DNA of 64,000 nt from Gemmatimonadota bacterium. GTDB taxonomy: Bacteria > Gemmatimonadota > Gemmatimonadetes > Gemmatimonadales > GWC2-71-9. Location of the stretch: the NCBI GenBank assembly GCA_040388535.1, contig JAZKBR010000004.1, forward strand, positions 310,001 through 374,000. Direction: 5' to 3'. Position 1 is the stretch's first letter; every line of letters starts with the position of its first letter. Position numbers and translations under genes: made by a program. The notes beneath the pieces were generated by a model. The model was not told the DNA's origin. It did no database searches and saw nothing but the letters and a program-made list of their open reading frames with translations. This document shows positions 6,924-19,531 of this stretch, one piece after another.

Positions 6924-7184
6924 TTACTGCGAGAGGCGCTTCGGCTCACCACTGGTGGGTGCCGCGCCAGGTGTCGTGCCGCGGTCGCCGTCGAGCAGAC
7001 CCTTGGTGTTCCGGTCGCTATCGGGCGGATTGAGGACGGCGTCCTGGGTATCGGTGAGCGATCGCTTGAACTCACGGATCCCCTTCCCCATCGACGAGCC
7101 GATTTCAGGGAGTCGCTTCGCTCCGAAGACGAGCAAGGCCACCACCAGCAGGATCATGATTTCGCTAAAGCCAAGATTTGGCAT
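6924..7184 (-). CDS. tatA: Sec-independent protein translocase subunit TatA/E
   Basis: An 86-residue TatA-family pore subunit for export of folded proteins. The N-terminal transmembrane helix (about residues 5-20, FSEIMILLVVALLVFG) is followed by the hinge and amphipathic helix motif FGAKRLPEIGSSMGKGIREFK, then a polar, disordered tail. It is last in an operon with a DUF4321-like protein, polyprenyl diphosphate synthase and a TPR protein. The tatC partner lies about 4 kb away, fused to lptD. I see no separate tatB. Confidence 0.93.
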   Translation of the reverse strand: MPNLGFSEIMILLVVALLVFGAKRLPEIGSSMGKGIREFKRSLTDTQDAVLNPPDSDRNTKGLLDGDRGTTPGAAPTSGEPKRLSQ

Positions 7185-7197
7185 GGCTGACTCCAGT

Positions 7198-7470
7198 TCA
7201 GAAGAGCGAGCGCGCGGCGTAATACGCCACCGCGACGCCGAGCAGACTCAACAGGGTGACGTGCATCCCCAGTGGCCCAAGCGTGAAGGATACCACGAGG
7301 AGATTGACCGACACAGGGCCCAGCGTCGGGGTCACTGCGAAGGTAAAAAACGACCGGGCGGCGCTTTCAGGGAGAAATCGCTCCAGGAGGGCCGCCAGGA
7401 AGCCGCCAAGGACAAAGCCGAACACCAGCATCCCGACGTAGAAACCCCCGCGCTTCGGTGAGGCAGCCAT
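7198..7470 (-). CDS. Small two-helix membrane protein, DUF4321-like
   Basis: A 90-residue protein with hydrophobic helices at about residues 10-28 (FYVGMLVFGFVLGGFLAALL) and 65-88 (LGPLGMHVTLLSLLGVAVAYYA). Between them is a segment VTPTLGPVSVNLLVVSFTLG that resembles the DUF4321 family (small conserved membrane proteins of unknown function). Its ATG overlaps the polyprenyl synthase stop by one base (TGATG), and tatA follows after 13 bases. The family assignment is from memory of the pattern and should be treated as likely rather than proven. Confidence 0.72.
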   Translation of the reverse strand: MAASPKRGGFYVGMLVFGFVLGGFLAALLERFLPESAARSFFTFAVTPTLGPVSVNLLVVSFTLGPLGMHVTLLSLLGVAVAYYAARSLF

Positions 7471-8462
7471 CAGCGTCTCCGGTCGAGGACGAAGCCCAGG
7501 GCCGATCGAAGGGTCTCGCGCGCCGGTGACTCCGGTAGTTCCGCGAGGTCGTCCTCGGCCTGCGACATCAGCCGCTGGGCGCGTTCACGGGCGTATTCCA
7601 GTCCGCCGTGGGCCGCAACCGCGGCGATCACCGCGGCGATGGCATCGGGATCCGGGTCGGGATCCCCCATCAGCCCTTCGAGCGCGGCGCGTTCCCCAGG
7701 GGAGAGGTGCGGCAGGGCATGGATCAGCGGGAGGGTCACCTTGTGCTCGTGGAGATCGAGCCCGGAAGGCTTCCCGGTCGTCGTCTGGTCCGCAGTGTAG
7801 TCGAGCAGGTCATCGGTGATCTGGAACGCCATCCCGAGCTTCTCTCCGAAGCGGGCTAGCGCCTGTCGCTGCGCAACGGGTGCGGCGATCGCCCCGACTT
7901 CACAGGCGCCCGACATCAGTGACGCCGTCTTGGCCCGGATCAGCAAGTCGTACTGCTCCTCGCTGAAGTCGAGTGGATCGTGCGCAAGCAGCTGGCGCAT
8001 CTCGCCGACGGTCATCTCCGTCGTCACGCGAGAGAGGATCCGCAACGCATCGAGGTCACCGAGACGAACCAGCTCCACAACTGCGCGCGAGTAGAGGAAG
8101 TCGCCCATGATCACCGACACCTGATGCGAGAACAGGGCGTTGATCGTCGGCATCCCGCGTCGAAGCGTGGAGTGGTCGACCGAGTCGTCGTGCACCAGTG
8201 TGGCGAGGTGGATCAGTTCGAGCACCGCGGCGAGCGTCGCGGCTCGCGGTGTCGGACCGCCGGTGGCCTGGTCGGCCAGTAGCACCAGTGTCGGACGGAA
8301 CATCTTCCCGCGCATCCGGAGCAGGTGCTGGTTGACCTCGCCGATGAGCGGAAAATCATCCTCGATCATCCGGCGCATCTCGCCCTCGACCTGATCGAGA
8401 CGCATCCCGACCGGGCGCTGGAGATCCGCGAGAGTCACCGCGCCGAGCTGCGGCGCGGTCAC
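7470..8462 (-). CDS. Long-chain all-trans polyprenyl diphosphate synthase (IspB/HepT-like)
   Basis: A 330-residue trans-prenyltransferase that condenses isopentenyl diphosphate units, probably giving the side chain of a respiratory quinone. Both aspartate-rich motifs are present, DDSVD (residues 92-96) and DDLLD (217-221), with GKMFRP upstream as the diphosphate-binding region. Small residues (HLATLV) before the first motif agree with a long-chain product, but chain length cannot be fixed by eye. The start is GTG at 8462, overlapping the TPR-gene stop in GTGA. It is co-transcribed with the DUF4321-like gene and tatA. Confidence 0.9.
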   Translation of the reverse strand: MTAPQLGAVTLADLQRPVGMRLDQVEGEMRRMIEDDFPLIGEVNQHLLRMRGKMFRPTLVLLADQATGGPTPRAATLAAVLELIHLATLVHDDSVDHSTLRRGMPTINALFSHQVSVIMGDFLYSRAVVELVRLGDLDALRILSRVTTEMTVGEMRQLLAHDPLDFSEEQYDLLIRAKTASLMSGACEVGAIAAPVAQRQALARFGEKLGMAFQITDDLLDYTADQTTTGKPSGLDLHEHKVTLPLIHALPHLSPGERAALEGLMGDPDPDPDAIAAVIAAVAAHGGLEYARERAQRLMSQAEDDLAELPESPARETLRSALGFVLDRRR

Positions 8463-10357
8463 GACGAACCGCTGGCGAGATGGGTCAGACGCTCGGCCAC
8501 GTCGTGGAACCCGACATCAACGGCCAGCACGCGCTCGTAGCAGTTGCGGGCATCAGCATTCTTCCCCTGCGCTTCTTGCGCCCGGCCGAGCCAGTAGAGG
8601 ACACCGATCTTCTCGGCGTCGTCCTCGGGGCCGCGCTCCACGGCGCGCAGCACAGCCTCGGCGACCGCCGGCCGACCCTGATCGTAGAACGTCTCGCCAA
8701 GCGCCTCCGATGTCCGGAGCCGCGCGGCTGGTGAACGGAGCGCCTTCTGGAATTCGCCGATTGCTTCGTCGAGCAGCCCCATCTCCTTGAACGCGATCCC
8801 GAGGTCGTAGTGGGCCTGGTGATCTTCGATCGGGAGGTTCTGATCCAGTGCCCGCTTGAATTCCGCGAGTGCCTCGCGGAAGGTCTCATCTTCATCCGGC
8901 GAGATCGCAGTTGTCTCGGTGCGCATCCGGGTGGAGCGCGGGCCGGCATCCTCGTTCATCATCGCCGCAAAATCGATGAAGCCGTCGGCCGTCTGTTCGC
9001 TTGGCGCATCGGGGTGCATCGCGCGGAGCGCTGCGCGGGCGCGTTCGTGGTACTCATCGAGTTCGAGCACCCGGCGATAGACCGCCACTGCCTTGTCGGT
9101 GCTTCCTTCGCGAACAAAGGCATCGCCGAGTTCCACGTACGACTCGCAAAGCCGTGGCCCATCCTTCATCTGCGAAGCAACTTCCACGCGCGCCTGATAG
9201 CGATTGATGGAGTTCGGCTCGGCCTGCACGAGTTCGGTCGACACTTGCCAGGCATGAAGCCATTCGGCGCGCTCCTGATACCCCGCGAGCGCTGCTTCGA
9301 GCCGCGCGATACCGCCTGCGCGATCGCCGTGCTCCAGCAACGCGTGGCCCGTGACCCGCTGCCCCAGCGGATCGTCGAGGGTCACGCCTTCGGGTAGCGC
9401 GGGCATCGCTGGGGTCGCTGGAGCGTCGGTCGCTCCCTCGGTCTCCAGAAAGACCAGCGGCGCGCCGCCTTCGGGCGCGGCGTCCGGTGACATGTCGAGC
9501 GAGATCGTGTCGGCCGCAGGCGGTGGCTCGAACGAGGTGACCTCGAGACCATCGATGCGGCCCTGCGCGCCGGCAGCCGCCGCCGTGAGCCCGACATCCA
9601 CCAGGCCATCGAGCAGGACGGTTGTGGGCGCAGGCGCGTCAGGATCGGCTTGCATGGTGGACTGCTCGAGCCCCTCAAGCTGGCTCACCTCGGGCGGGCG
9701 CTCGAACTCGATCTGCTCGACGAGGGTCGGGTCGATCGCGTGATCGGTAACCGGCCCCGGTATCGATTCGGATGCGCGCTCGAGCCGAAGGTCGGTGTCA
9801 ATGAAGACCAGGCCCCGGCCTTGCTCGACGCTGGTCCCCCCCGGCGATGCAACTTCCTCGGGGGCGTGGTCGCGTCCGAGCAGTTCGTCTACCAGTCCCT
9901 GGAGGTCACGCCAGCTGGAGAACTCGGCGGCGAAGGCATCGACCGCCGATTTCGCAGCATCCCCCTGCCCCGCGCGCTCCATCCGCTCGAGATAGGTGCT
10001 GAGCTGATGGCGCACGTCGTAGAGGACCCGCTTGCGTGCCTGATAGCGGGCCAGCTCAAGGTGAGTGCGGATGCGGTCGGGGTCGAGGCGGAGAATCTTG
10101 CCGCAGAGCGCGATGGCGTTATTGAAGAACCCCTGCTCGCCATAACGCGCGGCGGCCTGGTCCCACGCGTCACACGCGGCGGTATGGTCGCCGGCCTTGT
10201 GCTCGAGATCGCCGATGCGGTTGTAGAGGGAAGGATCAGCGCCTTCGGTCCCCCCTTCTGCCTCGCGGATGGCCTGGCGATAAAGCTCGATCGCCGCCCG
10301 CCATTCTTCGCGCTGTTCGTGCTGGCGCGCGGCGACTTTGAGCTTGTCAAGCGTCAT
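8459..10357 (-). CDS. Large TPR-repeat protein
   Basis: A 632-residue soluble protein with TPR-like helix pairs in the N-terminal 130 residues (EEWRAAIELYRQAIREAEG, HTAACDAWDQAAARYGEQG) and in the C-terminal half (about 330-620: STDKAVAVYRRVLELDEYHE, LLDEAIGEFQKALRSPAA, AQEAQGKNADARNCYERVLA). The two are joined by a long low-complexity, acidic and Ala/Pro-rich middle (about 160-320). It has no signal peptide. It heads the polyprenyl synthase-DUF4321-tatA operon. A scaffold or assembly role is plausible, but no partner can be named. Confidence 0.82.
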   Translation of the reverse strand: MTLDKLKVAARQHEQREEWRAAIELYRQAIREAEGGTEGADPSLYNRIGDLEHKAGDHTAACDAWDQAAARYGEQGFFNNAIALCGKILRLDPDRIRTHLELARYQARKRVLYDVRHQLSTYLERMERAGQGDAAKSAVDAFAAEFSSWRDLQGLVDELLGRDHAPEEVASPGGTSVEQGRGLVFIDTDLRLERASESIPGPVTDHAIDPTLVEQIEFERPPEVSQLEGLEQSTMQADPDAPAPTTVLLDGLVDVGLTAAAAGAQGRIDGLEVTSFEPPPAADTISLDMSPDAAPEGGAPLVFLETEGATDAPATPAMPALPEGVTLDDPLGQRVTGHALLEHGDRAGGIARLEAALAGYQERAEWLHAWQVSTELVQAEPNSINRYQARVEVASQMKDGPRLCESYVELGDAFVREGSTDKAVAVYRRVLELDEYHERARAALRAMHPDAPSEQTADGFIDFAAMMNEDAGPRSTRMRTETTAISPDEDETFREALAEFKRALDQNLPIEDHQAHYDLGIAFKEMGLLDEAIGEFQKALRSPAARLRTSEALGETFYDQGRPAVAEAVLRAVERGPEDDAEKIGVLYWLGRAQEAQGKNADARNCYERVLAVDVGFHDVAERLTHLASGSS

Positions 10358-10425
10358 GGCCGACCAGGGGTTGGGGGTGGCTCAAGTATCGATAGGACTT
10401 GAGGTTCTAAGTGTAGGCCGGGCCC

Positions 10426-10446
10426 CGGTCAGGGGCAAGCTGACCG
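10426..10446 (-). terminator. Possible hairpin terminator after the lipoprotein gene
   Basis: A 7-bp stem, CGGTCAG (10426-10432) with CTGACCG (10440-10446), lies about 45 bases after the stop of the lipoprotein gene in GC-rich flanks. No T-run follows, so this is only a tentative call. Confidence 0.35.
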
Positions 10447-10489
10447 AGGCCGGGGCGACCCGGAACACGTCCCCCAAAGTATCGACCGA

Positions 10490-11338
10490 TTACTCCCAAT
10501 TCACCCGGATGAGCTCCGGATTTCCCGGATCGTTCTGGAAAGCCCAGTCGAGGAGCACGAAGCCGGCACCGACGGAGACGACCCGCAGGGCGCCAAAGCG
10601 CTTGAAGCCATCGGCGCCCGTCATCTGCACCACGTAGCCCCACCCCGCGATCGCCTCGACGCCGGTCCGACCAAATCCGGTGAGCGGCGCCACATCGATG
10701 TCGTGCAGCGAGCCGACCGGCGTCTGGCCGTAGACCGTGATCTCGGTGCCAGCACGTTGCGGCACCAGGAAAAAGCGACCGCTCGCGTCACGCTGCAGCA
10801 CGAGGTCGACATCGGCGGCCCCGCTCATCACCGAGCCGAGTTCCGACCGGACTGCGTTCCCGTTGCCATCGAGGTCGCGCCAGAACCGGAAGCCGGCCCG
10901 AGTGTCGTCCGCCTGCCTTGCGTAGAGGGCCACGCTGGTCGACTCGAAGCGGGGCGTGTCCTCGCGGATGGGCGAGCGAGCCGATTCAATACCCTCGACA
11001 CTTTCGGCCGTCACAGAGAAGCAGCGCGGGCCACCGTTGTTCAAGGCGCCGGCCACGAAATCATTCGCCACCGTCGTTCCTTCCACCGACCACGGAGTCA
11101 GGCAGAGATCCCGATCGAGATCGTAGGGTGCCGAGTAGACGCGGTAGAGACGGAACCGACCCGGCGAGGCGCGGTACGGTTCATCGCTCCAGTGCAGCGC
11201 TATGCCGCCATCGAGGGAGGTGCTGGTGAGCGACGCGGGCTGTGGCAGCGCGCCGTCGTCGGGAAGGGTAAAGATGTTCTGGCAGCCAGCGAGCCAGGGA
11301 AGGATGAGTGCCTTGAGCAGCAACGAGCGAAACGACAT
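10490..11338 (-). CDS. Putative lipoprotein with beta-rich (fibronectin-like) domain, function unknown
   Basis: A 282-residue secreted protein. A signal peptide ends in the lipobox LAGC (MSFRSLLLKALILPWLAGCQ), so it should be lipidated by Lgt/Lsp and held at a membrane face. After this, a stretch with LTSTSLDGGIALHWSD, FRLYRVYSAP and CFSVTAESVEGIES looks like a fibronectin type III-like fold. The C-terminal part repeats short beta segments (GYVVQMTGADGFKRFGALRVVSV). I prefer the ATG at 11338 over 11350 because it gives a clean signal peptide. It follows the tatC-lptD gene after a structured 131-base gap. No enzyme motif is visible. Confidence 0.75.
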   Translation of the reverse strand: MSFRSLLLKALILPWLAGCQNIFTLPDDGALPQPASLTSTSLDGGIALHWSDEPYRASPGRFRLYRVYSAPYDLDRDLCLTPWSVEGTTVANDFVAGALNNGGPRCFSVTAESVEGIESARSPIREDTPRFESTSVALYARQADDTRAGFRFWRDLDGNGNAVRSELGSVMSGAADVDLVLQRDASGRFFLVPQRAGTEITVYGQTPVGSLHDIDVAPLTGFGRTGVEAIAGWGYVVQMTGADGFKRFGALRVVSVGAGFVLLDWAFQNDPGNPELIRVNWE

Positions 11339-11375
11339 GAGCAGCTCCACGCGAGTGAGTTGCGAAGAGCATTGG

Positions 11376-11430
11376 CAGGGCGCATGCCGCCGGAATCAGC
11401 GTTTCTGCCGTGAAACGGCAGGGTGCCCTG
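11376..11430 (-). other. Multi-stem leader structure upstream of the lipoprotein gene
   Basis: On the minus strand CAGGGC (11430-11425) can pair with GCCCTG (11381-11376). This encloses a perfect 7-bp hairpin CTGCCGT/ACGGCAG (plus coordinates 11405-11411 and 11415-11421) and a GC-rich CCGGCGGCATGCGCC element. The structure lies between the tatC-lptD stop and the lipoprotein start on the same strand, so it could be a terminator, an attenuator or a regulatory leader. It does not match a riboswitch class I can name. Confidence 0.35.
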
Positions 11431-11469
11431 ACCCGATGAGAGGACAGGGGCGTCCCGATCCGGGGACAC

Positions 11470-14400
11470 TCAGCGCGGCTTGAGGGTCGTCTGGTTGTAG
11501 TCGAACTTGACGTCGGGGAGCGGCTTGAGGGTCACCGTGAAGAAGAAGGCAAAGTTGCCGGTCGCGGTCTTGGAGAAATCGAACGACGCCATCCAGTCGT
11601 GCAGGTCACGCTGCAGCCGGATCACCTGCGACTCGAACTTGGAGTCGGTGATGTTGTACTGGGTTTGCCAGGAGACGCTCCAGTAACGGGTGGGCGAGAA
11701 GGAGGTGCTGAGACCGAGGTTACTGTGGTTTCCCGAGACCAGGTTGGTAGGCGGGAAGAAGATGTCGTTGGGGTCGGTGCTCACCGAGCCCACCGTGGTG
11801 CCCGTGGGGCGACGACGCTGCAGCGAGTAATTCAGGTTCGCGGTAAAGCCGCGTCCGGCCCCGGTCGCGTAAGCATCGGTGTTGGAAAATGCGCCGGGCC
11901 GGAAGCGTCGCGACGCCGGGCTCATGTAACTCGGCGGAGGCGTGGTCGTATCGCGCACGTCCCGCGGGTCGCGCTTCTTCGCCAGCCCGAAAAAGCCGGC
12001 GATCGAGCGGAATGTGCCACCATCGAGGGACATGCTCGCATTCACATTCGAGAGAAACGGCGCGAACTTCGCCGTGTCGGTCCCAACCTGCCCTTCCCAG
12101 AGGTCGTGGGTGAGCGAGACGTTCAGGCCGCGGACGAGATCGCTCTGGAAGGTGTTCGTCACGGCGGCCGTGGTCCAGCCGCTTCGCCCGGGGAGCTTCG
12201 CCTGTTCGAAGTCGTAGGCCACCGGCGTGGTGCCCCAGTTGAGCAGCGTCTTCTTCGGCAGGTTCGTGTCGTCACTCGTGGTATCACCCGGGGCAGGCTT
12301 CATCTTCGCGACGTACGTCTGATTGAGACTCACCGACGCGGTCAGCGTGGGCGGAGTCTCGAGTGGCAATGAGATCCCGCCGCTCCCGGAGACCGCGCGA
12401 GCATAGTCCTCGGAAAGCTTTGCCTTCGGCGAGTATTGAAGATTCATCAGCGGGTTGATGCTGGCACGGAATCGCTGCACCGGTCCGATTCCACCGAGAA
12501 ACCCGAACAGGGTGGGGGTCGACGCGAGGGAAAGCTGCAGTTTCTTCCCCTGCTGCACCCACTGGCCATTGGTGGCGGTATTGCGCACCATCAGCGGGCC
12601 ACTCGTGATGTTCGTGATGCCGAGCGTCGGCGTCACCTTGAACGTGCCCTGGAGCAGGAGCGGCAGGTTGATTCCGGTGGTCCAGTCGAAGGAGCTCAGG
12701 AAATCACCGTTCCGGACCGTGCTTACGCTCACGGAGTCCAGCGGATCCGCGGTGGAGAGGTCGGGGACCCGCTGCGTCACAGTGCGGCGCTGCGACGCCT
12801 GCATGTCGGTGAGCGTCAGGTTGTTGCTCCAGTTGAACGTCCCGAAACGGATCGGCGTCCCGATGGTGACGTTCGTCGTCCGCCGGTGCCCGAGGCTCGA
12901 GAGCGTGTCGAGCCGGCCGTTGTTCGCAAGAATTTCGGTGAAGGGAGTCTTCTGCTCCAGATCATTCGAGAGCGAAAAGGTCGGGCTCCACGAGACATGC
13001 TGTCCGAACTCGAAGGCTCGCGGTGAGATGGTGAGCGAGGGCAAGGTCATCCGGACCTGCCCGTCACTGATCGTCTGGCTCCGCGTGGCACCGAGGTTGG
13101 TATTTCCCCAGCTGAAGCGCTTCGCGAGGTTCAGCTGGCTGGTGATGTTCTGCGTCGACAGCAGCGGGTCGACGGTGTTCCCCTGCAACACCGAGCTGTT
13201 CCCGACGTAGTTGAGCCCGAAGCGGAGCGACGTGGTGTTGTTGAACTGCTGGTCGTGACTCCAGCGGATGTTCGTGCTCCCACCGCCCAGGCTCTGCTGT
13301 TCCTTGTCAATGGCGAAGTCACCCGTGACGAACCGGTCACGCCAGCGATACCGGAACTGCGACCCGTAACGCATATACCGGTTGGCGTACCAGTCCATAT
13401 GCGCGGTGAGGTCGATGTAGTCGTTGGGCGCCCAGTAATAGCCGATGTTGGTGACCTGGCGGTTGTAAGTCCGCGACGGTCGCACAATGTCGTTGAAACC
13501 GAAGTTGGGAATCAGGATCCCCGAGCGGCGGCCAACCTTGGTGTCCTGGAAGAGGAACGGCATCCAGACAATCGGCACATCGCGGATGTAGAGCACCGCC
13601 GGGCGCGCCACGAGCACCGATTGCGACACCCACTTCACCTGCCCTGACTGGAAGTGATAGTGTGGCTCGGCCAGGTCGCACGAGGTGAACTCGCTGTGCG
13701 CCGCATAGAGTCGTTTGCCGGTGGAGTCCACCGCCAGGTTGCCGCGCAGGAACCAGTTCGCGCCGGCGTCATCGAAGGTGGTCGTCGCCTCACCGATGAC
13801 CCCGCGTTCGTGGCAGGTGTCGAACTTCATCGTCCGACCCACCAGGATCTTCCCCTTCCCCTCCGGGTCTTCGAACATCCGCGGCTCGCCCTTCGCCGAC
13901 AGCTCGCACCGCGCATCGCTGTAGATGATTTCGTTGGCCTCGAGCACACTGGTATCGCGCACCGTGGCTGCGTGTCCGCCGAGGAAGAGGCCCTCGTCGC
14001 CCGGCAGCAGCGTGGCCGAGTCGCCCCGGAATCGGGTAACAGCAAAGCCCTCCCGCTTGAGGAGGGCCTGCATCACCGAGTCGGGCTCGAGAAACTTGTA
14101 CTTCGGTTTGGTCGGGATTCCGAGTCGCTTTGCGGTCGACGAGTCGATGGCCCGGGCGCCCAGTCCTGGCGTCACCTTGGCACGTCCGGTGTCGGCGGAC
14201 GGGGGCCGGAATGGCGGGTTCTGGGCGTGCAACTCTCTCGGCCCCCCCGCCAGCATCGTGAAGAGCACCAGCGCGCCGGCGATCTGGGCGGCCTTCTTCC
14301 GGCGCCGCTGCACCACAAAGGCGCCGAGCACACCGAGCTCATACAACGCAATCAGCAGCGCCGAGCAGACGATCATCGACAGGACGTCGGTGCCCGGCGA

Positions 14401-15024
14401 GAGAATCGCCCCGGCGATGCAGTTGAGCAGGACGGCATAGCGCCGGAAGCCGCTGAAGCGCTTCGCATCCATGACCCCGACCCAGGAGAGGAGGGTCATG
14501 ATCAACGGCAGTTCGAATGAGATGCCGACCGCAAGGATCACCTGAATCACGAACGAGAAATATTCGGCGAAAGTGATCTGGTTCACGAAATCGTTGCTGA
14601 CGGTGAGCAGGAACTTCAGCGAGAGCGGAACGCCGTAGATCCAGCCGAGCCAGCTGCCGAACAGGAAGAGCACCAGCCCGAGGCCGAGCGCCGGGATCAT
14701 CGCCTTTTTCTCGCGGTCGTAAAGTGCCGGCGAGAGGAAGGCCCACAACTGGTAGATGATGACCGGCGATGCCAGCACGAGCCCGAGCACGACGCCGAGC
14801 TTCAGGATCACCATCACCTGTTCGGTCGGCGCGAGGATGGTGAGTTTCCCGCCGGGCAGGTACGGGGCGATCGGCGCCTTGAGATAACCGATGGCGTTGT
14901 AGCTGGTCACCACCCAGAGGCCGATGCCGACGCCAACGAAGACCGCGATGAGCGCGCGGATGATACGCCCGCGAAGTTCCTCGAGGTGATCGAGGAACGG
15001 CATCTCGCCGGCAGGATTATCCAT
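11470..15024 (-). CDS. In-frame TatC-LptD fusion: Tat translocase subunit joined to LPS-assembly outer-membrane protein
   Basis: One uninterrupted 1184-codon gene. Residues 1-238 are a complete TatC: FLDHLEELRGRI at the N-terminus, six membrane spans, the conserved Pro/Glu region SFELPLIMTLLSWVGV, SPGTDV and the final ALYELGV helix. A basic stretch (RRRKK, 240-244) and hydrophobic core (248-260) ending LHAQ then form a Sec-type signal peptide, with likely cleavage after Ala267. Residues 268-1184 are LptD-like. There is an OstA-type beta-jellyroll region (about 330-460, with FTSCDLAEPHYHFQSGQVK), the LYIRDVPIVWMPFLF and GRRSGILIPNFGF motifs, and a long beta-barrel. LptD inserts lipopolysaccharide or a related glycolipid in the outer membrane. 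All three LptD cysteines lie in the N-terminal part (C373, C404, C449), so E. coli-style interdomain disulfides are absent. It is last in the tol-pal operon, eight bases after cpoB. Internal initiation at a GTG near codons 237-238 is an alternative route to separate LptD. Confidence 0.88.
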   Translation of the reverse strand: MDNPAGEMPFLDHLEELRGRIIRALIAVFVGVGIGLWVVTSYNAIGYLKAPIAPYLPGGKLTILAPTEQVMVILKLGVVLGLVLASPVIIYQLWAFLSPALYDREKKAMIPALGLGLVLFLFGSWLGWIYGVPLSLKFLLTVSNDFVNQITFAEYFSFVIQVILAVGISFELPLIMTLLSWVGVMDAKRFSGFRRYAVLLNCIAGAILSPGTDVLSMIVCSALLIALYELGVLGAFVVQRRRKKAAQIAGALVLFTMLAGGPRELHAQNPPFRPPSADTGRAKVTPGLGARAIDSSTAKRLGIPTKPKYKFLEPDSVMQALLKREGFAVTRFRGDSATLLPGDEGLFLGGHAATVRDTSVLEANEIIYSDARCELSAKGEPRMFEDPEGKGKILVGRTMKFDTCHERGVIGEATTTFDDAGANWFLRGNLAVDSTGKRLYAAHSEFTSCDLAEPHYHFQSGQVKWVSQSVLVARPAVLYIRDVPIVWMPFLFQDTKVGRRSGILIPNFGFNDIVRPSRTYNRQVTNIGYYWAPNDYIDLTAHMDWYANRYMRYGSQFRYRWRDRFVTGDFAIDKEQQSLGGGSTNIRWSHDQQFNNTTSLRFGLNYVGNSSVLQGNTVDPLLSTQNITSQLNLAKRFSWGNTNLGATRSQTISDGQVRMTLPSLTISPRAFEFGQHVSWSPTFSLSNDLEQKTPFTEILANNGRLDTLSSLGHRRTTNVTIGTPIRFGTFNWSNNLTLTDMQASQRRTVTQRVPDLSTADPLDSVSVSTVRNGDFLSSFDWTTGINLPLLLQGTFKVTPTLGITNITSGPLMVRNTATNGQWVQQGKKLQLSLASTPTLFGFLGGIGPVQRFRASINPLMNLQYSPKAKLSEDYARAVSGSGGISLPLETPPTLTASVSLNQTYVAKMKPAPGDTTSDDTNLPKKTLLNWGTTPVAYDFEQAKLPGRSGWTTAAVTNTFQSDLVRGLNVSLTHDLWEGQVGTDTAKFAPFLSNVNASMSLDGGTFRSIAGFFGLAKKRDPRDVRDTTTPPPSYMSPASRRFRPGAFSNTDAYATGAGRGFTANLNYSLQRRRPTGTTVGSVSTDPNDIFFPPTNLVSGNHSNLGLSTSFSPTRYWSVSWQTQYNITDSKFESQVIRLQRDLHDWMASFDFSKTATGNFAFFFTVTLKPLPDVKFDYNQTTLKPR

Positions 15025-15032
15025 CGATGTGG

Positions 15033-15812
15033 CTACGGAAGGGCGCGCAACGCGTCGCGGGCAAGCTTCGCCTCATCGCTCTGCGGGTAGCGATCGATCA
15101 CTTGCTGGTAGTAGGCCTTCGCAGCCGCCCGATCGGCGCGGCGTTCGGACAGCTTGCCGAGCTTGAAGAGCGCCGTCGGGGCCCGCGACGAGGTCGCGTA
15201 CTTGCTCACGACTTCGCTGTAGTACACCCGCGCCGAGTCCGGCTGCGCCGGATCGAAGGTGTCGGCAATGCCATATGTCGCATCGGGAGCGTACGACGAG
15301 GTGGGATAGAGCTCCAGCAGGCGCCGGAAGCCGAGTCGCGCCGACATCATCGCACCCTGCTGACTCTGCCCGCGCGCGGCCGAGTAGATGGCGTCGGCGG
15401 AGGGCTGGTTGATCGGTGCCTGACCAGCGGCCGGGCGCGTCGTGTCGCCGGGCGCTGGAGGAGGCGCCGGCGTCTCGGCACCCCGCACCTCAAGCTGGTT
15501 ACGCAAGTCGCTCAGGCGGCGCTGGCTCTGCCCCGAGAGCTCCTGCAGCACCAGCAGCGAGCGACGGACTTCAGTGAACTCGGCCATGTTGTCGCGACCG
15601 CTTCGTGCGAGCGCGCTCGACAGCGCGACGAGGGAGTCCATCCCGCGCTGCTGCATGGCAATGATCCGGGTCAGTTCGGCGGCGCGCGCCGAATCGGCAC
15701 GCGCCTGGGTCCGTTCGAGCACAGACACCTGCGTCTCGACGCGCCGCACCTGCCCCGGCGTGGCACACGCCGCTCCGAGGAGCAGCAGCGGCATCGCGAC
15801 GCGGGCCCGCAT
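15033..15812 (-). CDS. cpoB: CpoB/YbgF-type Tol-Pal associated protein
   Basis: A 259-residue periplasmic protein. It begins with a signal peptide and a possible lipobox (LLLLGAACATPG), followed by a coiled-coil region (about 20-110, VSVLERTQARADSARAAELTR) and a Pro-rich linker. Three TPR-like repeats follow at the C-terminus (AIYSAARGQSQQGAMMSARLG, ARVYYSEVVSKYATSSRAP, AAKAYYQQVIDRYPQSDEAK). In E. coli CpoB trimerises through the coiled coil and links Tol to peptidoglycan synthesis. Most homologues are soluble, so lipidation here would be a variation. Its ATG overlaps the pal stop by one base. Confidence 0.87.
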   Translation of the reverse strand: MRARVAMPLLLLGAACATPGQVRRVETQVSVLERTQARADSARAAELTRIIAMQQRGMDSLVALSSALARSGRDNMAEFTEVRRSLLVLQELSGQSQRRLSDLRNQLEVRGAETPAPPPAPGDTTRPAAGQAPINQPSADAIYSAARGQSQQGAMMSARLGFRRLLELYPTSSYAPDATYGIADTFDPAQPDSARVYYSEVVSKYATSSRAPTALFKLGKLSERRADRAAAKAYYQQVIDRYPQSDEAKLARDALRALP

Positions 15813-16387
15813 CAGCGCGGTGCCACCAGCGACTGCGCGCCGGCGATCGGCTCGAACTCGTCGCGACGGTTCTTGGCATACGCCGCTTCGTTCGAGGACG
15901 GGTCGATCGGCACTTCACGGCCAAGTGAGGCGACTTCGATGCGCGATGCGTCGACGCCGAGGCGGACGAGGTAATCCTTCGCGGCAACGGAGCGCTTCAT
16001 GCCGAGGGCGAGGTTGTACTCGTCGGAGCCGCGCTCGTCGGCGTGACCGGTGACGCGAATGCGCAGCGCCGGGTTGGCCTTGAGGATCGCGGCCTTGCGA
16101 TCAAGTCGGCCAGTATCGTCAGCGCCGATCGTGAATTCGTTGTAGTCGAAGTGAATCGTCTCGGCGATCTGGTTCACGAGGCCGGCACGCTCGGCTTCCT
16201 TCCGTGCGGCCTCGGCCCGGGCGATCGAGTCAGCATTCGAACGCGGCACGGTGGCGGTGGTGGTCGGCGACGATGGCGCCGAGCTCGGCACCGGTGCCGG
16301 CGCTACGGTGGGTTCAGCCTTCTTGCCACAGGCTCCGACGACGGTCGCCAGCCCGAACAGGGCAACGACGAGGGCACGTTGAGTCAT
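15812..16387 (-). CDS. pal: Peptidoglycan-associated lipoprotein Pal
   Basis: A 191-residue lipoprotein of the outer membrane that binds peptidoglycan and TolB. The signal peptide ends in a lipobox (VVGACGKK). A Pro/Ser/Thr-rich spacer follows, then an OmpA-like domain (about 85-175) with IHFDYNEFTIGADD, the peptidoglycan-binding Asp/Arg region VTGHADERGSDEYNLALGMKR and the closing NRRDEF. The start at 16387 has a strong ribosome-binding site (GGAGGAC) and is preferred to an ATG at 16492. Confidence 0.95.
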   Translation of the reverse strand: MTQRALVVALFGLATVVGACGKKAEPTVAPAPVPSSAPSSPTTTATVPRSNADSIARAEAARKEAERAGLVNQIAETIHFDYNEFTIGADDTGRLDRKAAILKANPALRIRVTGHADERGSDEYNLALGMKRSVAAKDYLVRLGVDASRIEVASLGREVPIDPSSNEAAYAKNRRDEFEPIAGAQSLVAPR

Positions 16388-16400
16388 GCGGTCCTCCACT

Positions 16401-17720
16401 TCAAGGGTTAGTGCCGCGCAATATAGGCGACCAGGCGGGATATCGGGCGCCCCCCGGGGTCGGCAATTGGCGCGAAGTTGCGGTTTCCACATCGAGGATC
16501 CAGAGCTGGTCTCGGCCGGTCCGATTCGACTTGAAAATCAGGTGCCTGGAATCAGGCGCCCAGCTGGGGTCCTCGTTCTGACGACCGCTCGAGGTCAGCT
16601 GCTTGGGCGGTCTGCCGGTGCCGATCTGGTAGACAAAGACCTGGCGCCCACCGGCCGCGTCTCGACCGAAGGCAATCGAGGTCCCATCGGGCGACCAGTC
16701 CGGGGCGTAGGAGGCCCCCGTCTCACCGCCATCGAACGGCACCAGCACAGCCTGGTCGGTGCCGTCGGCGTCCATCGCATAAATCTGCGGCGAACCGGCT
16801 CGCGTCGACATGAAGGCGATCCGCCGCCCATCTGGCGAATACGACGGCGTCACATTGTCGGCGAGCTTGCCGTTGGTGGTGAGCTTGTGGGCGCAGCACA
16901 TCCGCGGCACGTCGGCCTCGAAGAGGTCGGCCCCATCCTCGGCGGAGCGTCCGAACACGACCTTGCTGCCGTCGGGTGAGAACGAGGCACCAACGTTGTT
17001 GCCCGACACCGTGGTCGGCACCGTCACCCGGGTTCCAGTCGCCAGCGACTGGATGATGAGCGCGCCGACATAATCCTTGATCTCGGTATAGGCGATCCGG
17101 GTGCCATCCGGCGCCCAGGTTGGCGAAATCACGAGACCACCGGGGCGCGTGACCCGGACCAGATTCTGGCCATCGGAATCGACTCGCCAGACGCCGTTGT
17201 CCTTCTTGGTTCCCGCATCTTCCGCCTTGAAAAGCATCCGCGTGGCCGCAATCCCGACGCCACCAGTGATCCAGGTCACGACCTCGTCACTCACCCGATG
17301 AATCGCCAATCGGCTCTCACCCGCTGCCCCGGGGTCGAGTGGCCGGATGCCCTGTTGGCGCACCTGCCCTGCCCCGATGTCGTGCAGCTTGACCTCGACT
17401 CCAGCGCCCGCGCGTTGCAACTCGACCGCCCATGCGACACCGAGAGGCTTGAGCGTCGCGGGGACGAGCGCACCGCTGAGCCGGGCAAGCGAGTCGGGGA
17501 GAAACGCCATCTCGAACCGGTCCGAGAACCCCAGGTCGCGCTCGATCACTCGTCGCACCGAATCGAGACCAGCGCCAGCCATCACCAGGACACCTGGACG
17601 TGCGCCAGCAGTGTAGTTGATGCCGAGGCGAATCCGTTCGATGTCCTGAGCATCCGCCCGGGAGGCGGTCATGGCGGCCACCGCGGAGATGAGGACAATT
17701 CCTGCCCGACACTTCCGCAT
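16401..17720 (-). CDS. tolB: Tol-Pal system periplasmic beta-propeller protein TolB
   Basis: A 439-residue periplasmic protein with a cleavable signal (MRKCRAGIVLISAVAAM...SRADAQ). The N-terminal TolB domain (about 30-165) is followed by a six-bladed propeller of WD40/PD40-like repeats recognisable as SPTWAPDGTRIAYTE, GASFSPDGSKVVFGR, TPSYSPDGRRIAFMS, APDWSPDGTSIAFGR and DPSWAPDSRHLIFKS. TolB binds Pal and colicin-type or TolA partners. The ATG at 17720 overlaps the stop of the TonB/TolA-like gene (TGATG). Pal follows after 13 bases. Confidence 0.95.
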   Translation of the reverse strand: MRKCRAGIVLISAVAAMTASRADAQDIERIRLGINYTAGARPGVLVMAGAGLDSVRRVIERDLGFSDRFEMAFLPDSLARLSGALVPATLKPLGVAWAVELQRAGAGVEVKLHDIGAGQVRQQGIRPLDPGAAGESRLAIHRVSDEVVTWITGGVGIAATRMLFKAEDAGTKKDNGVWRVDSDGQNLVRVTRPGGLVISPTWAPDGTRIAYTEIKDYVGALIIQSLATGTRVTVPTTVSGNNVGASFSPDGSKVVFGRSAEDGADLFEADVPRMCCAHKLTTNGKLADNVTPSYSPDGRRIAFMSTRAGSPQIYAMDADGTDQAVLVPFDGGETGASYAPDWSPDGTSIAFGRDAAGGRQVFVYQIGTGRPPKQLTSSGRQNEDPSWAPDSRHLIFKSNRTGRDQLWILDVETATSRQLPTPGGARYPAWSPILRGTNP

Positions 17721-18396
17721 CACGGCCGCCGCGTTGGAGCGAAATAGAAGGAGATCGGCAACTCGTCGCCGACGAAGCCCGATGGCAGCGGCCCGAACGC
17801 CCTCGCACGGCCGGAGAGTTCCACTGCGCCGAGCGCATTGAGATCGAAGTCGTCGCGTCCCGAGCTCACCGCGATCGCGGGATCCTTGACGGAGCCATCT
17901 CGAAGAATCACGAACGACACCTCGGCGTGCAGATTGGTCCCGACCAGCGGCTGACGCCACCGGAGATAGATCTGATTGGTGATGTTCCTGAGATATTCCG
18001 GAAACGGAAACTGCATTCCGGCCTGACTCAGGGTTACTACGTCCCGGCCCGTACTCGGTGTCGTATTCGGAATCGGGGTCACCGGCGCTTTGGTCACAGG
18101 CACCTTGTCCTCGACTTTCACCTGATTCGCAGGCTTCGGCTTCACCGGTTCGGGTTTGACCTTTTGCTTCGGCGGCAGGATCGGCGCGGTTTCCGCCTCG
18201 GCCACCGGAGTCGCCTCGGCAGCTGCGCGTCGCGGGGTCTCTTGCGGTGCCGGAGCGGCGATCAGTTCTACGGCATAGACGACTGGCGACGGAGCCGGCG
18301 CACGCTGAGCGAAGAGCACGAGTGCCACGACGACGAGGCCATGCACAGCAAGCGTCCCGGTGAGTCCGGCTGGACGTGTCGAGGCGCGCACGGCGG

Positions 18397-18400
<4 letters not shown>
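17720..18400 (-). CDS. TonB/TolA-like energy-transducing protein of the Tol operon
   Basis: A 226-residue protein. One N-terminal membrane anchor (about 12-31, LTGTLAVHGLVVVALVLFAQ) is followed by a Pro/Lys/Ala-rich linker (about 50-110, with PPKQKVKPEPVKPKPANQ). The C-terminal TonB/TolA-type domain (about 120-220) contains FPEYLRNITNQIYLRWRQP and EVSFVILRDGSVKDPAI. It occupies the tolA slot between tolR and tolB and probably transmits TolQR energy to TolB-Pal. It lacks the long Ala/Lys-rich helix of E. coli TolA and looks more like a short TonB. Its ATG overlaps the tolR stop in ATGA. Confidence 0.88.
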
Positions 18401-18825
<425 letters not shown>

Positions 18826-18826
18826 G

Positions 18827-19531
18827 CTACAACTTCCCCTCGCGCCCCATTGCGCCGATCGTTTCCTGGGCCAGGCGCTCGAGTTCGCCTTCGAACCGCT
18901 CGGTCCGTGACGTGAAGATGTTGTAGGCCACCACGGCAGGGATCGCGGCACCAAGGCCGGCAGCGGTCGCGATCAGTGCATCGGCAATGCCGGGGGCCAC
19001 GGCCGCGAGATTGCTGCTCCCTGCCACACTCAGCCCGTTGAACGACTTCATGATGCCGAGCACGGTGCCGAAGAGGCCGAGCAGCGGCGCGGTGCTTCCG
19101 ATGGTGGCGAGCCAGGGGATCATCCGACCAGCCTGATCGGCTTCCTCGCGAACCCTGGTGTCGAGCGTCATGGTGAGGGCTTCGAGCTGCGTGAGCGAGA
19201 GCCCGGTACGCGAGACATTGGCCCGCTCCATCGCGCCGTGCAGGTCTGCGATGAACGAGGTCGATGTCTGCACGATATCGGCGTAGGGTGAGTCGCCGAG
19301 CCGGGTCACCGCCTGCGCCCGATCATCTGTGCTGCGGCTGCGGGCGACGGCAGCGTCGAACGCCTTGCGCGCGCTGCGGAGGCGACGGAACTCCCACCAC
19401 TTCGCGCCAATGACGTACCACGAGATGAGCGAGCAGAGGGCACAGATCACGAGCACGACGCTCGTTTCCGTGCTCGCATTGAGCACCAGCTGGATGAGCC
19501 CGGGAACCGACGCCCCGGCGGTCTGTTCCAT
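18827..19531 (-). CDS. tolQ: TolQ/ExbB-type proton-channel subunit
   Basis: A 234-residue inner-membrane protein with three helices: about 24-42, 137-160 (LATIGSTAPLLGLFGTVLGI) and 177-200 (IADALIATAAGLGAAIPAVVAYN). The GSTAPLLGLFGTV and AGLGAAIPA stretches are the MotA/TolQ/ExbB signature that forms the proton pathway with TolR. The stop is two bases before the tolR GTG. The ATG overlaps the epimerase stop by one base. Confidence 0.95.
   Translation of the reverse strand: MEQTAGASVPGLIQLVLNASTETSVVLVICALCSLISWYVIGAKWWEFRRLRSARKAFDAAVARSRSTDDRAQAVTRLGDSPYADIVQTSTSFIADLHGAMERANVSRTGLSLTQLEALTMTLDTRVREEADQAGRMIPWLATIGSTAPLLGLFGTVLGIMKSFNGLSVAGSSNLAAVAPGIADALIATAAGLGAAIPAVVAYNIFTSRTERFEGELERLAQETIGAMGREGKL

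Follow-up and report, generated by a model that had tools for sequence, protein, structure and literature searches.

Does a single reading frame in the window (the whole stretch of DNA analysed here, 64,000 nucleotides of a Gemmatimonadota contig) truly join TatC, of the inner-membrane Tat translocase, to the outer-membrane protein LptD, and, if it does, does the cell end up with one protein or with two? The answer is sought in the two halves of the frame, in its relatives across the phylum, in the short sequence at the junction, and in the competing accounts of how a functional LptD could be obtained from such a gene.

The frame and its two halves

The frame begins with ATG and reads from 15024 down to 11470, encoding 1184 amino acids; it had been reported in the initial annotation with no strand given, and it lies on the minus strand. 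Its parts are as follows.

11470..15024, minus strand: tatC::lptD, one gene of 1184 codons (continuous open frame, Pfam matches on both halves)
14311..15024, minus strand: TatC part, residues 1-238, a six-helix TatC core (PF00902/TIGR00945; 4hts/4b4a by sequence, 4hts by fold)
14224..14307, minus strand: predicted internal Sec signal peptide, residues 240-267, with RRRKK, a hydrophobic core and the c-region ELHA (layout conserved in 76 fused proteins)
14221..14226, minus strand: predicted signal peptidase I cleavage point, Ala267/Gln268 (invariant Q268, x-A/Q motif)
11473..14223, minus strand: LptD part, residues 268-1184, comprising linker, jellyroll and outer-membrane barrel (PF19838, 7omm/8h1r by profile, E. 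coli LptD by fold)
14089..14223, minus strand: linker after the signal peptide, about 45 residues, mostly disordered in the predicted structure

The TatC half matches Pfam PF00902 over residues 12-220 (E 1.5e-57; 195 bits, cut-off 25.1) and exceeds the cut-off of the NCBIfam equivalog TIGR00945 (185 bits against 132.7), and by sequence it also matches PDB entries 4hts and 4b4a. Within its signal-recognition region, FLSPALYxxEK, residues P99, A100, L101 and E105 are invariant in both alignments of relatives (A1 and A2); the glutamate of this motif is presumably the equivalent of Glu103 in E. coli. The LptD half matches LptD_2 (PF19838) over residues 472-871 (E 1.1e-31; 110.5 bits, cut-off 22.5), and a profile built on 40 relatives matches solved chains of both TatC and LptD, the latter being 7omm and 8h1r.

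An AlphaFold2 model of the fused protein, made from the same 40-relative alignment (mean pLDDT 76), superposes on TatC 4hts over residues 12-240 (Z 19.6, rmsd 3.1 Å, 224 residues aligned) and on E. coli LptD 9kn3 over residues ~294-1170 (Z 17.5, rmsd 6.0, 603 residues aligned), the LptD jellyroll and the large outer-membrane barrel beginning at about residue 294. Residues 256-293, which flank the proposed cut, are disordered (pLDDT below 50). Both assignments of the initial annotation, a complete TatC in residues 1-238 and LptD in residues 268-1184, are thus borne out by family match and by fold.

In its six-helix core and its invariant residues the first half resembles known TatC proteins (PF00902; 4b4a, 4hts, 9dzz), but it has no free C-terminus and runs into a signal helix and LptD. 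The second half likewise has the periplasmic jellyroll and outer-membrane barrel of known LptD (PF19838; E. coli 9kn3, Neisseria 7omm), yet lacks a start codon and an N-terminal signal peptide of its own and would be exported behind TatC. Since about 70 divergent genomes, with 40-58% identity to the window, keep a frame of some 1180 codons open, a chance open frame is excluded, and the gene is confirmed as a genuine fusion of TatC and LptD, both parts being complete.

Distribution and history of the fusion

The initial annotation had proposed looking for the same architecture across Gemmatimonadota. A search across the family, with the fused protein as query, covered 102 genomes, whose junctions were then inspected; the arrangement was readable in 81 genomes of the window's family, the others being broken by contig ends or having no match. 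The two genes are fused in one frame in 74 of these 81, spanning about 32 genera and many independent projects, and are not fused in the remaining seven. Six family members (G041, G120, G271, G400, G198, G405) have adjacent but separate tatC and lptD. In the family member G018 the two genes are separate and non-adjacent, on different contigs (L109, L110).

Among the genomes listed from a sample of the whole phylum (395 genomes), most members of the window's family have TatC frames of ~1180-1260 amino acids, and those of other families have frames of ~255-460. In the sister family (148 genomes sampled) two long frames were found, of 1436 amino acids in G028 and 1272 in G170, both from one genus; when read through, both proved to be tatC::lptD, which brings the fused proteins to 76, i.e. 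74 in the window's family and two in its sister. No fusion was seen in another family, f5, among 120 genomes with a match, and in a search of plasmids none of the matches listed covered more than 80% of the fused protein, coverage reaching 28% at most. Separate tatC and lptD genes in relatives had been put forward as grounds for rejecting the fusion; outgroups and a few family members do have them, yet with 74 fused genomes in the same family the fusion is not refuted. The named relatives are metagenome-assembled genomes of Gemmatimonadota (Gemmatimonadales), their isolate names suggesting groundwater, lake, peat and soil, among other sources; their records came from a contig scan with an alignment as query, a single-protein query having given no match.

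Most of the genomes examined that lack the fusion have lptD immediately behind tatC, usually with a 4-nt overlap (ATGA or GTGA) between the lptD start codon and the tatC stop. Such pairs in other Gemmatimonadota share with the fused gene the gene order, the protein families and the x-A/Q signal peptide of LptD, and differ from it in having two frames, a TatC stop and a start codon for LptD. The fusion probably arose when an adjacent pair with this overlap was brought into one frame.

In a tree built on TatC plus LptD of 87 loci, G028 and G170 group with each other (support 1.00) amid species of their genus with separate genes, and this nesting indicates that the second fusion was independent; the alignment of its junction is too divergent to place an indel. 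Within the window's family, the separate-gene G041 and G120 sit inside fused clades (support 1.00), whereas the remaining split members are placed less firmly, with G018 near the family base (support 0.55). The most economical history would have a single old fusion in the window's family, a second and recent one in the sister genus, and no more than five separations; either outcome would follow from a shift of frame at the 4-nt overlap. Conserved, gained at least twice and also undone, the fusion lets one follow, as in a natural experiment, the passage from overlapping genes of an operon to a fused gene.

The junction and its predicted internal signal peptide

Between the two halves the initial annotation had pointed to RRRKK, a hydrophobic core and LHA-Q, with Ala267 as the likely cleavage point. 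These elements are present, and their layout is that of the whole group: in 76 of 76 fused junctions the last TatC helix is followed by a basic stretch (RRRxRR type, at least three basic residues), a hydrophobic core and A/G/S-Q. Position -1 is Ala in 71 proteins, Gly in four and Ser in one (L068, read by eye), and position +1 is Gln in all 76. Position -3, scored in 75 proteins, is Leu in 40, Ala in 21 and Val in eight, counts which are approximate by one, as L053 was scored at an A-Q later than its likely site; it is L, A, V, G, S or T in nearly all and R in two of the 75. Gln268 is invariant in the alignments of 33 (A1) and 40 (A2) sequences, and the linker after it is variable.

Judged by its residues, the internal sequence 240-267 has what a type I signal peptide would call for, namely a basic n-region, a hydrophobic core and small or neutral residues at -1 and -3. 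Leucine at -3 is allowed in textbook type I sites, though it is not the commonest residue there, and L-x-A/Q is the ordinary signal-peptide pattern of the window's own genome: in 464 kb of it (400 kb of stretches plus the window), surveyed with a simple hydropathy filter, 14 of 31 signal-peptide-like N-termini have A-Q in the c-region, as against 9% of internal 16-mers, and in those 14 the commonest residue at -3 is L or A. Gln at +1 after predicted signal peptidase cleavage seems to be common in this Gemmatimonadota genome (L245-L264 and the window). The free LptDs of outgroups and of split family members, for their part, have an N-terminal signal peptide that mostly ends at x-A/Q.

A parallel is found in the Q-rule of Bacteroidetes, in which signal peptidase I leaves the +1 Gln as the new N-terminus, which is then cyclised; the rule is not general in phyla related to Bacteroidetes, and Gemmatimonadota are not mentioned (PMC5837995). 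The likeness lies in the Gln at +1 of the predicted signal peptidase I site in TatC-LptD. Given the conserved junction, the invariant Gln268, the A-Q pattern of the genome and this parallel, cleavage between Ala267 and Gln268 is the natural reading, and the cleavage point suggested earlier appears well chosen; the +1 Gln could also have been inherited from the ancestral free LptD and have persisted for another reason.

Probable processing of the precursor and its genomic setting

Quite probably, then, the product of tatC::lptD is one precursor that is processed into two separate proteins. The TatC half would insert in the inner membrane with its C-terminal end in the cytoplasm, where the basic stretch at that end would also serve as n-region for a Sec signal peptide; the helix that follows would engage SecYEG, so that the LptD chain is exported, and signal peptidase I would cut between residues 267 and 268, releasing LptD with an N-terminal Gln. 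The freed LptD would proceed to the BAM complex and the outer membrane, and TatC would retain the signal peptide as a seventh helix, unless it is trimmed later. It is assumed here that TatC works with this seventh helix, that LptD is essential in this organism, and that both products would be functional.

The nearest known case would appear to be FbcH of Bradyrhizobium japonicum, the cytochrome b/c1 precursor that is split by signal peptidase. In FbcH, too, the chain starts with an inner-membrane protein of several spans whose end lies in the cytoplasm, and continues through an internal signal peptide into a protein that is exported; but its two parts are subunits of one inner-membrane enzyme, whereas TatC and LptD serve unrelated machines in two different membranes, LptD being an outer-membrane barrel. 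By the standard of FbcH, a single frame with no independent start for the second protein, the case stands for the group and is not proven for the window.

It is the latter point that bears on a different, unlikely source of free LptD, namely an internal translation start near the end of tatC, with the fusion itself being a by-product or degraded. The ancestral 4-nt overlap is typical of translational coupling, many junctions contain GTG or ATG, and in 27 of 75 a Shine-Dalgarno-like energy of -5 or better is found; the other 48, however, have no start with such an energy, one locus (L098) has no ATG, GTG or TTG in its junction, and in four (L055, L056, L082, L146) the only starts lie in the hydrophobic core, within 18 residues of the cut and thus too late to provide a whole signal peptide. 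In the window, three GTG codons lie close to the end of the TatC part, and their Shine-Dalgarno energies are weak (-2.8 for the best). Furthermore, there is no stop between the parts, so translation begun at tatC must enter lptD. As a general route, an internal start is ruled out for at least five fused genomes, and it is weak in the window.

The initial annotation had left the choice between a polyprotein and an uncleaved tether, the whole chain coupling the Tat translocase to outer-membrane LptD by a linker that spans the periplasm. Comparative data favour the former, and the tether is very unlikely. The frame is continuous, a disordered linker follows the signal helix in the model, and the linker is somewhat longer in fused than in unfused proteins (median 50 and 41 residues, p 0.03, over all genomes, species not being independent). 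Against this, split LptDs of the same family have linkers of 52, 63 and 66 residues, and one of 15; some 45 residues fully stretched would reach about 150 Å by my own estimate, which is short for a periplasm; and a tether is at odds with an invariant x-A/Q site and with the repeated loss of the fusion in the 87-locus tree. A cleaved polyprotein is preferred because the +1 Gln is invariant, the site is typical of the genome, the fusion has been gained and lost more than once, and the linker is of ordinary length. A lengthening of the linker to act as a tether is likewise rejected, most split members within the family having equally long ones. There is a slender chance that cleavage is slow or partial, and that a transient TatC-LptD bridge couples Tat export to outer-membrane glycolipid insertion. 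That a missing base in the seven-G run at about 14243-14249, within the junction, hides a true stop is scarcely conceivable, for 74 genomes from many independent projects have the same in-frame junction, with conserved amino acids on both sides.

With a cleaved polyprotein, TatC would carry one helix more than usual, the internal signal peptide would have to function behind six membrane spans, and an inner-membrane and an outer-membrane protein would always be synthesised 1:1. Very few bacterial polyproteins are known to be cut by signal peptidase, and a literature search on TatC-LptD fusions and bacterial polyproteins gave nothing directly relevant, in keeping with the initial annotation, which knew of no such single-chain protein; TatC-LptD is apparently a rare and undescribed one. 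Its interest lies in the joining of two unrelated envelope machines in an arrangement which is conserved family-wide, has at least two origins and has been reversed several times. Under automatic annotation the gene may be named after one half only, and surveys may miss the other.

In the genome, which is 98% complete, tatC::lptD is the sole match to TatC and the sole match to LptD_2; a second tatC or lptD that might supply the free proteins was sought genome-wide, and none was found. Two sets of neighbours concern the envelope.

6924..7184, minus strand: tatA, the only TatA/B/E match in the genome, downstream of tatC::lptD and in the same direction
15033..19531, minus strand: upstream genes for TolQ-like, TolR-like, TonB/TolA-like, TolB-like propeller, OmpA-like Pal and TPR (CpoB/YbgF-like) proteins

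Between the end of the TPR gene and tatC::lptD lie 8 nt. The stretch 6924-19531 on the minus strand forms an envelope gene cluster in which the tol/pal-like genes, tatC::lptD and tatA all run in one direction, and which also holds lipoprotein-like, TPR and polyprenyl synthetase genes. The genome also has two signal peptidase I genes and LptF/LptG, and their presence, like that of tatA, speaks for the processed precursor. A permease of the LptF/LptG family (L268, 445-2847, minus strand) has a proline-rich insertion of about 200 residues that splits its Pfam match.
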